Source: Aquiluna sp.
GTDB lineage: Bacteria > Actinomycetota > Actinomycetes > Actinomycetales > Microbacteriaceae
DNA length: 36,928 nucleotides
Direction: 5' to 3'
Assembly: GCA_028144365.1 (NCBI GenBank)
Contig: JAOGAX010000007.1
Coordinates: 1 to 36,928, forward strand
Part shown: positions 1 to 28,867 of the stretch, one piece after another
How positions within the stretch are numbered: the stretch's first letter is position 1
Layout of the letters: every line of letters begins with the position of its first letter
Notes under the pieces: model-generated
Told to the model about the DNA's origin: nothing
What the model saw: only the letters and a program-made list of their open reading frames with translations
The model's database searches: none
Made by a program: the position numbers and the translations under genes

Positions 1-747
1 ATCGGCTGCGTTCAGCGCATACTTCAGCATTCGAATCGCTGTCGGGCTCTTGCCGAGGATCTGCTCTGCGAACTCAAGTCCTGCGCTTTCAAGCTGCTCG
101 TGGTCCACCACCTTGTTCACTGCGCCAATCTCAAGGGCCCGCTGGGCGTCATACTCCTGCCCCAAAAAGAAGATCTCACGAGCAAACTTCTGGCCAACCT
201 GCCTAGCCAGCAGCATTGATCCATAGCCGGCATCAAAGGAACCAACGTCAGCATCTGTTTGCTTGAACTTGGCATGCTCCCTGGAGGCAATCGAGAGATC
301 GCAGACCACATTAAGCGAGTGTCCACCGCCCGCCGTCCAACCTGACACCAGAGCGATTACAACCTTTGGCATGAAACGAATAAGTCTTTGGATCTCGAGA
401 ATATGAAGTCTGCCTGCTCCGCCTGGAGAGTACTCATAGCCGCTATCTCCCCTGACCCTCTGGTCACCACCGGAGCAAAAGGCCCAGACGCCATCCTTGG
501 GTGAGGGACCATTGCCGGTTAGCAGCACGACCCCAACATCGGAGAGCATGCGCGCGTGATCTAAAGCTCTATAGAGCTCATCTACCGTCTGCGGCCTAAA
601 GGCGTTTCTAACCTCGGGCCTTGAGAAGCCGACCCTAACTACTCCCAGGGAATTGTGGCGGTGATAGCTGATGTCTTCCAGGTCCTCAAATCCCGCAACA
701 TCGACCCACTGGGTGGGGTCAAACGGGGCTCCTGGAGAAAATTTCAT
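1..747 (-). CDS. menB: 1,4-dihydroxy-2-naphthoyl-CoA synthase MenB (3' end outside window)
   Basis: Crotonase-fold enzyme that closes the second ring of the menaquinone head group, turning o-succinylbenzoyl-CoA into 1,4-dihydroxy-2-naphthoyl-CoA in the cytoplasm. The leftward frame is open from an ATG at 747 to base 1 (249 codons), so the C-terminal part lies beyond the window. Diagnostic stretches are AFCSGGDQ near residue 95, SGWTAGGGHSLNVVCDL near 145-160 (oxyanion-hole glycines) and TDADVGSFDAGYGS near 175-190, all typical of MenB rather than other enoyl-CoA hydratases. It diverges from menC with only 17 bp between the two start codons. A TAGTCT hexamer ends 6 nt before the ATG, so it is probably leaderless. 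Identification is firm; the length of the missing part (about 50 residues) is estimated from the family. Confidence 0.95.
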   Translation of the reverse strand, partial: MKFSPGAPFDPTQWVDVAGFEDLEDISYHRHNSLGVVRVGFSRPEVRNAFRPQTVDELYRALDHARMLSDVGVVLLTGNGPSPKDGVWAFCSGGDQRVRGDSGYEYSPGGAGRLHILEIQRLIRFMPKVVIALVSGWTAGGGHSLNVVCDLSIASREHAKFKQTDADVGSFDAGYGSMLLARQVGQKFAREIFFLGQEYDAQRALEIGAVNKVVDHEQLESAGLEFAEQILGKSPTAIRMLKYALNAAD

Positions 748-764
748 ATGCCTAGACTAATCAA
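748..764. promoter_or_regulatory. Overlapping divergent leaderless promoters of menB and menC
   Basis: On the + strand TAGACT (753-758) is followed by 6 nt and the menC ATG. On the - strand TAGTCT (759-754) is followed by 6 nt and the menB ATG. The two -10 hexamers share the 7 bases TAGACTA, so polymerase cannot open both at once. The hexamers and spacings are seen in the sequence; promoter activity is inferred from the TANNNT -10 consensus and the leaderless habit of Actinobacteria. Confidence 0.7.
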
Positions 765-1739
765 ATGGCAGCCGACGAGATAACCGATGTAGCGGTTGTA
801 GCCCTCCCGCTGAGGACTAAGTTCCGCGGGATTGTGGTGCGTGAGGCGCTAATCTTCCGAGGCAGCCAGCGCTGGAGCGAGTTCAGCCCCTTCGTCGAAT
901 ACGAGGACGATGAGGCCTCTCAGTGGCTAGCAGGTGCCATCAGTTGGGCCAATGACCCGCTTCCTAGCTCTTTTAGGCAGTCAATACCAGTGAATGCCAC
1001 CCTGCCGGCGGTTGGTCCGGATGAGGTGGCCGATGTCCTCTCACCCTTTGGCCGCTTTAGCTCGGTAAAGATCAAGGTCGCCGAGAAGGGGCAAGATCTA
1101 GAAGACGACATTGCTAGAGCAAGAAGGGTAAGAGACCTCTACCCCGATACCAAGATTCGACTGGATGCCAATGCCGGCTACACCACCGAGCAAACCATGC
1201 AGATCGCAAGGGAGCTCAAGAGCCTTGAACTGGAATATATTGAGCAGCCGGTAAAAACCATCGCTGAGCTCAAGGAGCTCAGGAACTGGTTGGCCGAGGA
1301 ACAGATACCGCTCAAGGTGGCAGTCGATGAATCCATTAGAAAGTCAACCGACCCGCTACTGGTTGCCAGGGAACAGGCGGCTGACATTGCGGTTATCAAG
1401 GTTCAACCGCTCGGAGGCATAAGGAGGGCTCTCGCGATCGCAAGTGAGAGCGGCCTGGAGATAGTCGTTAGCTCTGCCCTTGAGAGTTCTATCGGCATTG
1501 CCCACGGCCTACACCTTGCCGCTGCCATGCCAACGCTCAGCTATGACTGTGGTCTTGCAACCGCAAGACTTCTTGGCGGTGACGTTGTTGCCTCCCCGCT
1601 GGTTCCGGTAGCTGGCGAAATACAGCTTCGCGAGGTGACACCGAGTGAAGAGCTTTTAGAGAAATATGCCGCCGGCCCAGAGCGCACTCAGTGGTGGCTA
1701 AATAGATTAGAGCGTTGCAGGCAGCTATTAGAGACCTGA
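765..1739 (+). CDS. menC: o-Succinylbenzoate synthase MenC
   Basis: Enolase-superfamily enzyme that dehydrates SHCHC to o-succinylbenzoate, the step before MenE and MenB in menaquinone synthesis. It has 324 residues, usual for the actinobacterial form. The KIKV lysine pair near residue 102 is the catalytic KxK. DANAGY near 139, the E of EYIEQP near 165 and DES near 193 supply the three metal ligands, and KVQPLGG near 217 carries the second catalytic lysine. The ATG at 765 is the A of a leaderless start, 6 nt after TAGACT. The gene converges on ccsB and overlaps its 3' end by 12 bp. Menaquinone is the likely electron carrier for the cytochrome c branch encoded next door, a functional link that is inferred. 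Confidence 0.94.
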   Translation: MAADEITDVAVVALPLRTKFRGIVVREALIFRGSQRWSEFSPFVEYEDDEASQWLAGAISWANDPLPSSFRQSIPVNATLPAVGPDEVADVLSPFGRFSSVKIKVAEKGQDLEDDIARARRVRDLYPDTKIRLDANAGYTTEQTMQIARELKSLELEYIEQPVKTIAELKELRNWLAEEQIPLKVAVDESIRKSTDPLLVAREQAADIAVIKVQPLGGIRRALAIASESGLEIVVSSALESSIGIAHGLHLAAAMPTLSYDCGLATARLLGGDVVASPLVPVAGEIQLREVTPSEELLEKYAAGPERTQWWLNRLERCRQLLET

Positions 1740-10249: not shown

Positions 10250-10515
10250 ACAAGCTCGCTTAGATACTCAAAGGCTCGCTTCTCGTCTATCCGCCAAAAT
10301 GAAACCTGCTTTTTATTGATCAGTAAAACGGGAACCTCTTCACTGAACCGCTGCAACTCGTCGTATTCACTGATGTCTAATAGCTCTACCGAGTACTCGC
10401 GGTCTGCATGCTCGGCGGCGAAGCGGGCGATTACCCTTGCCAAATCTGATTCTGCGGCAACGCAGAGATGGCAACCCTGTCTGATAACCAATTGGATTTC
10501 GATTGGCTCTTTCAT
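10246..10515 (-). CDS. Glutaredoxin-like protein (DUF836 type)
   Basis: Small thioredoxin-fold protein of 89 residues with a dithiol motif RQGCHLC (Cys15 and Cys18) after the first beta strand and a cis-proline signature SEEVPVLLIN near residues 58-67. These show a glutaredoxin/DUF836 fold. It probably reduces disulfides in the cytoplasm; its partners are unknown. In many Actinobacteria this gene stands beside a HAD-IB phosphatase gene, as here (divergent). The ATG at 10515 follows TAGTCT by exactly 6 nt, so the transcript should be leaderless. The stop overlaps a 42-residue reading frame by ATGA. Confidence 0.87.
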   Translation of the reverse strand: MKEPIEIQLVIRQGCHLCVAAESDLARVIARFAAEHADREYSVELLDISEYDELQRFSEEVPVLLINKKQVSFWRIDEKRAFEYLSELV

Positions 10516-10557
10516 GGTTCAAGACTAGGCGATTCGCTCCGGCTCTAGACTTAGCGA
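10516..10557. promoter_or_regulatory. Divergent leaderless promoters (glutaredoxin-like / HAD-IB)
   Basis: Leftward TAGTCT (10527-10522) lies 6 nt before the glutaredoxin ATG. Rightward TAGACT (10546-10551) lies 6 nt before the HAD GTG. The whole spacer is 42 bp and the two hexamers are 18 bp apart, so each occupies the other's -35 region. Confidence 0.65.
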
Positions 10558-11268
10558 GTGACCCCAGCAAGCAAACCTCAGAAGAAGGTTGCCGCATTCT
10601 TTGATGTGGACAACACCCTAGTTTGCGGCTCCACATCAATCCTCTTTGGCAAGGTCGCCTTCACAGGAGGCAGCATCAAGCGCCGCGATATTTGGCGGTT
10701 TATGTGGGAGCACGTCATGTACATGCGACGGGGCGAGAAGAACTCCAAAATGGCTGACTTCAAAGACCGGGCTCTGATGCTGACAAAAGGTCACTCGGTT
10801 GAAGAGCTTCAGGGCCTGATCGACCAGGTCTACCGAGATGAGATCAAGCCAAGGCTTTGGCCACGAAGCCTCGAGCGTCTCAAACATCACCTTGAGCAGG
10901 GACACGAAGTTTGGCTGGTGTCAGCAGCGCCTGTTGAACTGGCTCAAGCAATTGCAGATGACCTTGGCGCGACAGGTGCCCTGGGCACCATCGTTGGTCA
11001 CGACGGAAACGTTCTCACTGGCGAGCTGGTTGGTGCCCCTCTGCACGGCAAGGCAAAGCGGAGAGCAATCAAAGCGCTCGCAAAGGAAAGAGGCATCAGC
11101 CTCAGGAAATCCTGGGCCTACTCCGACTCGGTGAACGACCTACCGATGCTCAGTGCGGTGGGGAATCAGGTGGCGGTGAACCCGGATCAGCAACTTAGAC
11201 GCTATGCAGTTGCCGCGGGCTGGGAGATTCTCCGTCAGCGCAGGCGAGAGCTAAGGGCCCAAAAGTAA
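10558..11268 (+). CDS. HAD-superfamily subfamily IB hydrolase (SerB-like phosphatase)
   Basis: Cytoplasmic phosphatase of 236 residues. Motif I is FFDVDNTLV (nucleophile Asp near residue 16, with the DxDNT variant), motif II is WLVSAAP near 118-124, the motif III lysine is in GKAKRRAI near 164, and motif IV is YSDSVNDLPML near 185. This set is typical of the HAD-IB family that includes phosphoserine-phosphatase-like and CicA proteins; the substrate is unknown. The start is GTG at 10558, placed 6 nt after TAGACT, so it is probably leaderless. It converges on the bS22 gene, with that gene's terminator hairpin directly after its stop codon. Confidence 0.88.
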   Translation: MTPASKPQKKVAAFFDVDNTLVCGSTSILFGKVAFTGGSIKRRDIWRFMWEHVMYMRRGEKNSKMADFKDRALMLTKGHSVEELQGLIDQVYRDEIKPRLWPRSLERLKHHLEQGHEVWLVSAAPVELAQAIADDLGATGALGTIVGHDGNVLTGELVGAPLHGKAKRRAIKALAKERGISLRKSWAYSDSVNDLPMLSAVGNQVAVNPDQQLRRYAVAAGWEILRQRRRELRAQK

Positions 11269-27883: not shown

Positions 27884-28867
27884 CTAATTGGCTGTTACTA
27901 GAAGGCGGTCGTTTACCCGCTCTACTGTAATGCCAGAAAGGGCGAGCTTTTTCTGTCCGTGCCAATTGATAACTAGCTGCTCTACCTCCAAAACCTGAGC
28001 CCGAGAAATGGTCGCTCCGCTGATGCTCTGCAGGTAAAGCTGAAGAGCTTTTCTCCTAAGTCCCGGATGCAGACTCTCAACGCCTGCGACATCGAGACCA
28101 GAATCACCGACTGAGTCTGCCAGAACGGCCTGCGCCTGCTGGGCGAGGAAGTCATCGGCCTCAAAAGCAAGGCCGGCAGTTCTGGCGAGCGCCGCCTGAA
28201 ACCCCGCACCCAGTGTCTTCTCTAGCTCTCCTGCAAGCTTTCTGACTCGAACCCGCAAGAAACTCTCGTCCTGATTGTGTGGGTCGTCCCAAAACTCAAG
28301 ACCCTGATCCAGGCAGGACTGCCTAAGTTCCTCTCTTGTGATGTCGATAAGCGGCCTGACAAGGCTTCGCTCCGTGTCAATTTTTGGCATTCCGCTAATT
28401 GATCTAAGCCCCGAGCCTCTTGCCAGGCCCAGCAAGACTGTCTCCGCCTGGTCATCCTGGTTGTGGCCAAGCAGCACATAACTCGCAGAGTGTCCCACTC
28501 TCGCCCTTTCAAGCGCTGCGTACCTAGCATCCCTAGCGGCAGCCTCGAGGCCCTCACCCTTGGGGTTGACTCTTACCTGCTCAATAAGTACTGGGGCCAA
28601 ACCCAACTCACTGCATCTGTGTGCAGCCTGGTCGGCAACCTCTTGCGAATCGCTCTGTAGGCCATGGTCAACTACTACCGCACCAACCTTGTGACCAGCC
28701 TTGGGGACCTCAAACGCCGCCGCGGCGGCAAGTGCCATCGAGTCCGCTCCGCCCGAGCAGGCAACTAGGAGCATTGATCCAGGCTCTAGCTCGAGCTCTG
28801 CAAGTAGCTCCCTGACAGCGCGCCGAGCGTTTGCCATGGCGGGGGTGAGGCGAGGTCTAACTGGCAT
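27884..28867 (-). CDS. tilS: tRNA(Ile)-lysidine synthetase TilS
   Basis: Modifies C34 of the CAU-anticodon tRNA-Ile to lysidine so that it reads AUA. It has 327 residues from the ATG at 28867. The N-type ATP-pyrophosphatase P-loop is VACSGGADSMALA near 35-47, with VDHGLQSDS and LLGHNQDDQAETVLLGLARGSG near 130-150. The frame extends to a TTG at 28897, but TAGGCT (28903-28898) predicts a start near 28891 and CGGAG precedes the ATG at 28867, so the later start is chosen. It is the first gene of the long leftward block and diverges from ppa. Confidence 0.94.
   Translation of the reverse strand: MPVRPRLTPAMANARRAVRELLAELELEPGSMLLVACSGGADSMALAAAAAFEVPKAGHKVGAVVVDHGLQSDSQEVADQAAHRCSELGLAPVLIEQVRVNPKGEGLEAAARDARYAALERARVGHSASYVLLGHNQDDQAETVLLGLARGSGLRSISGMPKIDTERSLVRPLIDITREELRQSCLDQGLEFWDDPHNQDESFLRVRVRKLAGELEKTLGAGFQAALARTAGLAFEADDFLAQQAQAVLADSVGDSGLDVAGVESLHPGLRRKALQLYLQSISGATISRAQVLEVEQLVINWHGQKKLALSGITVERVNDRLLVTAN

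Follow-up and report, generated by a model that had tools for sequence, protein, structure and literature searches.

A putative bidirectional promoter with one shared -10 element and two predicted leaderless transcripts between menB and menC in Aquiluna

Two divergent genes of the menaquinone pathway, menB and menC, lie at the left end of a 36,928-nucleotide stretch of Aquiluna sp. DNA (assembly GCA_028144365.1, contig JAOGAX010000007.1), hereafter called the window. Their start codons are separated by so short a spacer that the locus raises two questions: can both genes be transcribed from it, and, if so, does it act as a switch between them? The answer that we favor, and regard as highly probable, is that the spacer is a bidirectional leaderless promoter with one shared -10 element, which would most simply have merged once and would provide linked low-level expression of the two genes. 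This reading builds on the sequence, its conservation, register statistics, one MenB clade and a changed promoter where the genes lie apart; predicted from these are the start sites, two-way activity, the sigma factor involved, the course that evolution took and the consequence for physiology.

The menB/menC spacer and its conservation

The two genes were identified using curated NCBIfam equivalog models. menB scored 424 bits against PRK08321 (cut-off 378), and menC scored 392 bits against PRK02901 (cut-off 288). The N-termini of eight MenB sequences of the genus, including that of the window, and of one from outside the genus aligned without gaps from the first residue, which supports the menB start codon. 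No in-frame start was found upstream of the menC ATG in the window. The contig stops inside menB, and the arm on that side is therefore described from G002, a relative of the same genus whose genome (1.36 Mb) is on one contig. Its left arm reads menB-menE-menA, with menD approximately 600 bp further, and its right arm holds menC; the scores of menE fall short of the NCBIfam cut-offs, and this listing of the arm omits short ORFs.

Table 1. Coordinates of the features of the menB/menC locus in the window
Feature	Position	Strand	Basis or remark
menB (1,4-dihydroxy-2-naphthoyl-CoA synthase), 3' end cut by contig end	1..747	-	NCBIfam PRK08321 and ORF
menB start codon CAT	745-747	-	
Plus-strand sequence CAT-ATGCC-TAGACTA-ATCAA-ATG	745-767	+	direct reading
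Predicted menB transcription start, A of AUG	747	-	inferred from register
Entire 17-bp spacer separating the divergent menB and menC start codons	748..764		direct reading
Shared -10 core TAGACTA	753..759		identical in the 33 genomes with menB and menC still together
menC -10 hexamer TAGACT	753..758	+	6 nt to AUG
menB -10 hexamer TAGTCT	754..759	-	6 nt to AUG
Predicted menC transcription start, A of AUG	765	+	inferred from register
menC start codon ATG	765-767	+	
menC (o-succinylbenzoate synthase)	765..1739	+	NCBIfam PRK02901 and ORF

Direct reading confirmed the original prediction that the 17-bp spacer contains TAGACT and TAGTCT, overlapping as TAGACTA and each 6 nt from an ATG. A script check of the hexamers gave a five-base overlap, and both genes have TANNNT at a 6-nt gap from the start codon. 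The window contains a single instance of the expression CAYN5TANNNTAN5RTG, where 300 mononucleotide shuffles predict 0.08, and the only match in G002 is likewise at the menB/menC locus.

The core is carried by three genera, g1 (the genus of the window, 22 genomes), g11 (10 genomes) and g117 (3 genomes). menC was present in all g1 genomes, and TAGACTA was kept in 22/22 g1, 8/10 g11 and 3/3 g117 genomes, or 33 of the 35 examined. The spacer is 17 bp long in 18/22 g1 genomes and 18 bp in the other 4, in which the extra base lies on the menC side and yields a 7-nt gap. The eight g11 genomes with the core also have 17 bp; the remaining two do not have menB and menC as divergent neighbors. Among 17 g1 representatives, the mean pairwise identity was 1.00 for the core, 0.49 for the five bases to its left and 0.80 for the four bases to its right. 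The core value compares with 0.31 at fourfold codon sites of menB (15 sites, 15 of the 17 sequences), which indicates that the core is held by selection. On these alignments, the conservation is strong evidence that the arrangement exceeds chance, and a chance origin of the core, which we had considered, is ruled out by it.

The ATC adjoining the core (760-762) is near-invariant in g1 (0.88, 1.0 and 1.0) and not so across the three genera. It is left unexplained by the -10 model and counts against our preferred reading.

We took 29 further loci of the family and left out six for lack of menB. None of the remaining 23 has a TANNNTA core in the register of the window (0/23). In one of them (genome G229, locus L313), the hexamers do overlap, as TACTCTA; the gaps of 6 and 8 nt within its 19-bp spacer put it beyond the search expression. 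The comparison of relatives that had been proposed as a check was thus favorable within the three genera, for the core and, in most g1 genomes, for the exact length, and unfavorable outside them, where the spacers have other lengths and are not conserved.

Leaderless register and the predicted cost of sharing a core

We determined the position of TANNNT relative to the starts of 1288 genes predicted in G002 with an ad hoc gene caller. Of these genes, 154 have the motif at a distance of 6 nt upstream of the predicted start and 49 at 7 nt, and each of the 28 remaining offsets accounts for 2-22 genes. This peak supports leaderless mRNAs. The 154 promoters favor G at -10 (0.62), C at -8 (0.56) and T at -6 (0.60), three positions that had not been used to select them. 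In a per-position scan of the same promoters for a -35 element, which would blur any motif whose spacing varies, no single position from -50 to -21 exceeded 0.08 bits. Genomes with leaderless genes, most of all those of Actinobacteria, have been described as carrying TANNNT some 10-12 bp upstream of the start codon (PMC3160421, in part), and in M. tuberculosis, promoters are reported to carry TANNNT and no -35 motif (PMC3898074, in part). G002 resembles these actinobacterial genes in its -10 word, its register and the lack of a per-position -35 signal. Unlike ordinary leaderless genes, menB and menC would be two leaderless genes placed head to head on one -10 element.

The menC hexamer TAGACT is the commonest word of the leaderless set of G002 (18/154), in which the menB hexamer TAGTCT occurs in 4/154. 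The bases forced by sharing are disfavored letters. A shared TANNNTA imposes A at -6 on both sides (A 0.10 and T 0.60 in the 154), and a central A on one strand imposes T at -9 on the other side (0.10). The central A is on the menC strand in 33/33 genomes, so menC gets TAGACT and menB gets TAGTCT. The A at 759, disfavored at menC -6, is nevertheless present in all 33, and its complement is the -12T of menB; its invariance would be best explained by the use of that complement by menB.

The promoter score percentiles in the window are 0.38 for menC and 0.13 for menB, and they range across g1 from 0.32 to 0.73 and from 0.08 to 0.40, respectively. The menB hexamer scores below that of menC in 20/22 g1 genomes, and its percentile in g11 reaches as low as 0.03; the order is reversed in all three g117 genomes, with menB above menC. 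The predicted strength of the shared promoter is middling to low, and with so low a score for its hexamer, menB could draw part of its transcription from another site. The menB T at -18 is found in only 8/33 genomes, menC beginning with GTG in 25, which suggests that this element is dispensable.

Overlapping leaderless promoters with a shared core were the substance of the original prediction. The idea gains from the register statistics, from the conservation of the core and of the 17-bp length, and from the changed promoter of lone menB genes described below, with both starts predicted from the register. On sequence grounds, we consider it very likely that menB and menC have such promoters.

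Apparently separate, merged and re-separated promoters in the family

In a MenB tree of 61 rows, g1, g11 and g117 form one clade (support 100/96). Leucobacter and an uncultured Microbacteriaceae were placed among the genomes of the family, which is thus probably Microbacteriaceae, and the deep order is weak in places. Of 80 named related loci, none came closer than 73% in MenB. For a single clade of three genera one merger suffices, and this one-protein tree provides modest evidence that there was a single merger.

Relatives outside the three genera have the same two genes in the same divergent orientation. At 29 hand-picked loci, a candidate leaderless -10 was found on each side (29/29), and promoters fitted per locus are separate in all 29. 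The spacing in such relatives is estimated at about 36 to 912 bp, with shorter, overlapping exceptions at L313, L170 and L177. The candidate -10 of menB lies at 6-7 nt in 29/29, in a fit that takes the best of nearby starts and is thereby biased towards finding one. menB has TAGGCT in 16/29 of these loci and menC has [C/G]AGACT in 12/29; menC has T at -12 in only 5/29.

In the window, menC and a convergent ccsB-like gene overlap by 12 bp (1728-1739). In two sister genomes, G171 and G232, which represent one event, menC instead follows ccsB on the same strand, and no TANNNT was found 6-7 nt before the ATG of this relocated gene. The lone menB reads TAGGCTT, not TAGTCTA, with the hexamer TAGGCT 6 nt from its ATG. 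Its -9 base is therefore G (0.32 in the 154 G002 promoters) rather than T (0.10), and its -6 base is T (0.60) rather than A (0.10). By the tree, the shared form would have preceded the separation in these genomes.

Overlap of the menB and menC promoters arose elsewhere, apparently independently. The spacer of Corynebacterium variabile (L177) is 22 bp long, with TACGAT and TAGGCT sharing TA; that of Micrococcales bacterium fen_678 (L170) is 19 bp long and has the imperfect core GAGAATA; L313 was described above.

To place the locus among other gene pairs, we searched 398 family genomes for CATN5TAGACTAN5RTG. It matched at 32 places, spread over 30 genomes, and the control matched at 6. Thirty TAGACTA loci were fetched. 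They comprise 18 menB/menC pairs, 8 pairs of a gpmA-like gene and an unassigned gene (genus g8; in the one example submitted to Pfam, this neighbor had no match), 2 pairs of FMN oxidoreductase and NAD(P)H-hydrate dehydratase genes, 1 pair of M13 peptidase and MATE transporter genes, and 1 apparent chance match, the identities coming from Pfam for one example of each kind and from inspection by eye for the remainder. Other gene pairs carry other TANNNTA words in the same register as menB/menC. With any TANNNTA and ATG on both sides, 199 family genomes gave 13 places at a 15-bp spacer, 69 at 17 bp and 35 at 19 bp, compared with 32, 22 and 18, respectively, for a backward-pattern control. The excess is thus confined to gaps of 6 and 7 nt. 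A 22-bp spacer with TA shared, which sets the starts 23 bp apart, gave 121 places against 9 in the control in the same number of genomes. ORFs of at least about 80 aa on both sides were found at 1/13 of the 15-bp places, 12/26 of the newly fetched 17-bp places (two doubtful; six different pairs, one doubtful), 6/7 of the 19-bp places (three pairs by eye) and 13/20 of the 22-bp places (nine pairs by eye); because sister species and recurrences of one pair are counted among these places, some of them hand-picked, the figures overstate the independent cases. In G002, TANNNT lies 5-8 nt from both starts in 21 of 184 divergent pairs, five of which have spacers of 15-23 bp; in these five, the hexamers overlap.

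Several of these pairs deserve mention in their own right. A pair of sugar-kinase-like and membrane-protein-like genes, named by eye, has a 22-bp spacer and the 23-bp geometry, with the near-palindromic AAGNCTAGNCTT (G000:C26:17323-17350, L340). It is apparently a second conserved double-leaderless pair of the genus, also present at L338, L339, L341 and G002 position 1193241. In at least three genera, a cysteine-desulfurase-like gene and a second gene (both by eye; L369-L371 and L373) are separated by a double-leaderless spacer of 19 bp. A pair of PdtaS-like histidine kinase and alpha/beta-hydrolase-like genes, identified by Pfam for L277 and by eye for the other two, has a 17-bp spacer in L277 (g59) and L275 (g119) and a 22-bp spacer in L343 (g46), as if the overlap geometry could change. 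In the window itself, a divergent pair at 10515-10558 has separate leaderless -10s, TAGTCT and TAGACT, in a 42-bp spacer. At 28836-28837, two divergent genes have overlapping predicted ATGs (CATG), as do three pairs in G002; for the window pair, this may reflect start misassignment.

A phylum-wide class was considered and rejected. CATN5TAGNCTAN5ATG gave 9 places against 8 in the control across 296 genomes, and we claim no excess outside the family. Among 7 new phylum loci, three have ORFs of at least 80 aa on both sides, and a fourth has 77 aa on one side. One of these loci, from a distant phylum member (L327, G547), has a moaA-like/mobA-like pair (Pfam), two genes of one pathway, across a 17-bp TAGGCTA spacer.

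Proposed promoter, alternatives and published systems

We propose that the spacer at 748-764 acts as a bidirectional promoter of which little more than one common -10 element is left, and that its TAGACTA would be read in both orientations by RNA polymerase with the housekeeping sigma factor. Position 754 would serve as -11A for menC and -7T for menB, and position 758 the reverse. Each mRNA would begin directly with its start codon, making both leaderless, with starts 18 bp apart. The arrangement would most simply have a single origin, two separate leaderless promoters of divergent menB and menC having merged in the common ancestor of the three genera. Its likely effect would be low-level linked expression of two arms of the menaquinone pathway, rather than a switch.

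The original prediction went further, holding that polymerase can open only one direction at a time and that the locus would thereby form a reciprocal switch. Exclusive opening is a fair steric argument, stated for bidirectional promoters (PMC12825309, in part), and it is predicted here for the shared -10. The same source, in part, reports that one direction can be repressed by strong activation of the other; in a toggle between menB and menC, polymerase engaged one way would shut off the opposite gene. However, it also reports that the five bidirectional promoters tested in E. coli all fired at basal level without competition. The predicted strength of the menB/menC promoter is middling to low, its forced bases are disfavored, and a regulator could not be accommodated in the spacer without reaching into coding sequence; in reading the locus, no regulator or activator site was noticed. 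In G002, the genes on both sides serve the same pathway, for which linked expression would have an evident use and toggling none. We therefore disfavor the switch, which we hold to be highly improbable.

It may also be that TAGACT drives menC only, TAGTCT being a by-product and menB being transcribed from another start. The standing of the menC hexamer as the commonest leaderless word fits this, as does the rarer menB hexamer with its lower score in most g1 genomes. Yet A759, a disfavored base if menC alone used it, is invariant, menB retains TANNNT 6 nt from its AUG in G171 and G232 after the separation, and the best-fit menB -10 lies at 6-7 nt at all 29 outside loci fitted, albeit in a biased fit. 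We judge a one-sided promoter very unlikely. Even less credible is a core that binds a regulator, with transcription starting inside the opposite genes. An invariant core with a conserved ATC beside it in g1 is what an operator might look like, but on either strand the hexamer matches the leaderless -10 profile derived genome-wide, other gene pairs have different TANNNTA words in the same register, and the lone menB lost the core and kept a -10.

If both transcripts of the shared promoter do start at their AUGs, 17 bp would carry two promoters and abut the transcription and translation starts of two arms of the synthesis of menaquinone, a respiratory quinone. Rules based on E. coli would then extend to bacteria with many leaderless mRNAs, where start-codon spacing and -10 spacing can coincide. 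Tentatively, the family of the window might have a class of double-leaderless bidirectional promoters with 18- and 23-bp geometries, whose cores merge, are selected to fix the output ratio of one pathway and re-separate. In such a class, both start codons would be transcription starts lying inside the opposite promoter, the intergenic region would amount to roughly one core, and the fixed ratio here would be that of menC against menB-E-A. Relatives with apparently separate, merged and re-separated states would offer a natural system for the purpose of bidirectional promoters, for which compaction, a fixed ratio, noise control and mere tolerance are candidates.

The closest published systems are the bidirectional promoters with a shared symmetric -10 described by the Grainger and Wade groups in E. 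coli and Salmonella. Their commonest start spacing, beside 10 and 23 bp, is 18 bp, at which -7T and -11A coincide, with T at -18 (PMC10268837, in part). The window resembles them: 18 bp separate the predicted start at 747 on one strand from that at 765 on the other, 753-759 can be read on both strands with -7T and -11A reciprocally paired, and the T at -18, which is usual and not obligatory, is found on both sides, as the complement of 765 for menB and as plus-strand T747 for menC. The 23-bp spacing named in PMC12825309 (in part) is matched by other pairs of the family. Unlike the E. coli and Salmonella cases, both menB/menC transcripts are predicted to start at the start codons of protein genes, so that the promoter core would fill the intergenic region; the main text of PMC12825309 never uses the word "leaderless". 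In M. tuberculosis, closely juxtaposed divergent promoters are common and a leaderless divergent pair, prpD/Rv1129c, has been shown (PMC3898074, in part), but the available part of that source mentions no shared -10, unlike menB/menC. A search of titles and abstract openings in open-licence PMC returned no divergent leaderless pair sharing one -10, which we do not take as a claim of absence. The menB/menC spacer would thus belong, from its sequence, to the known bidirectional promoters with a shared -10, and its novelty would be that both transcripts are leaderless mRNAs.
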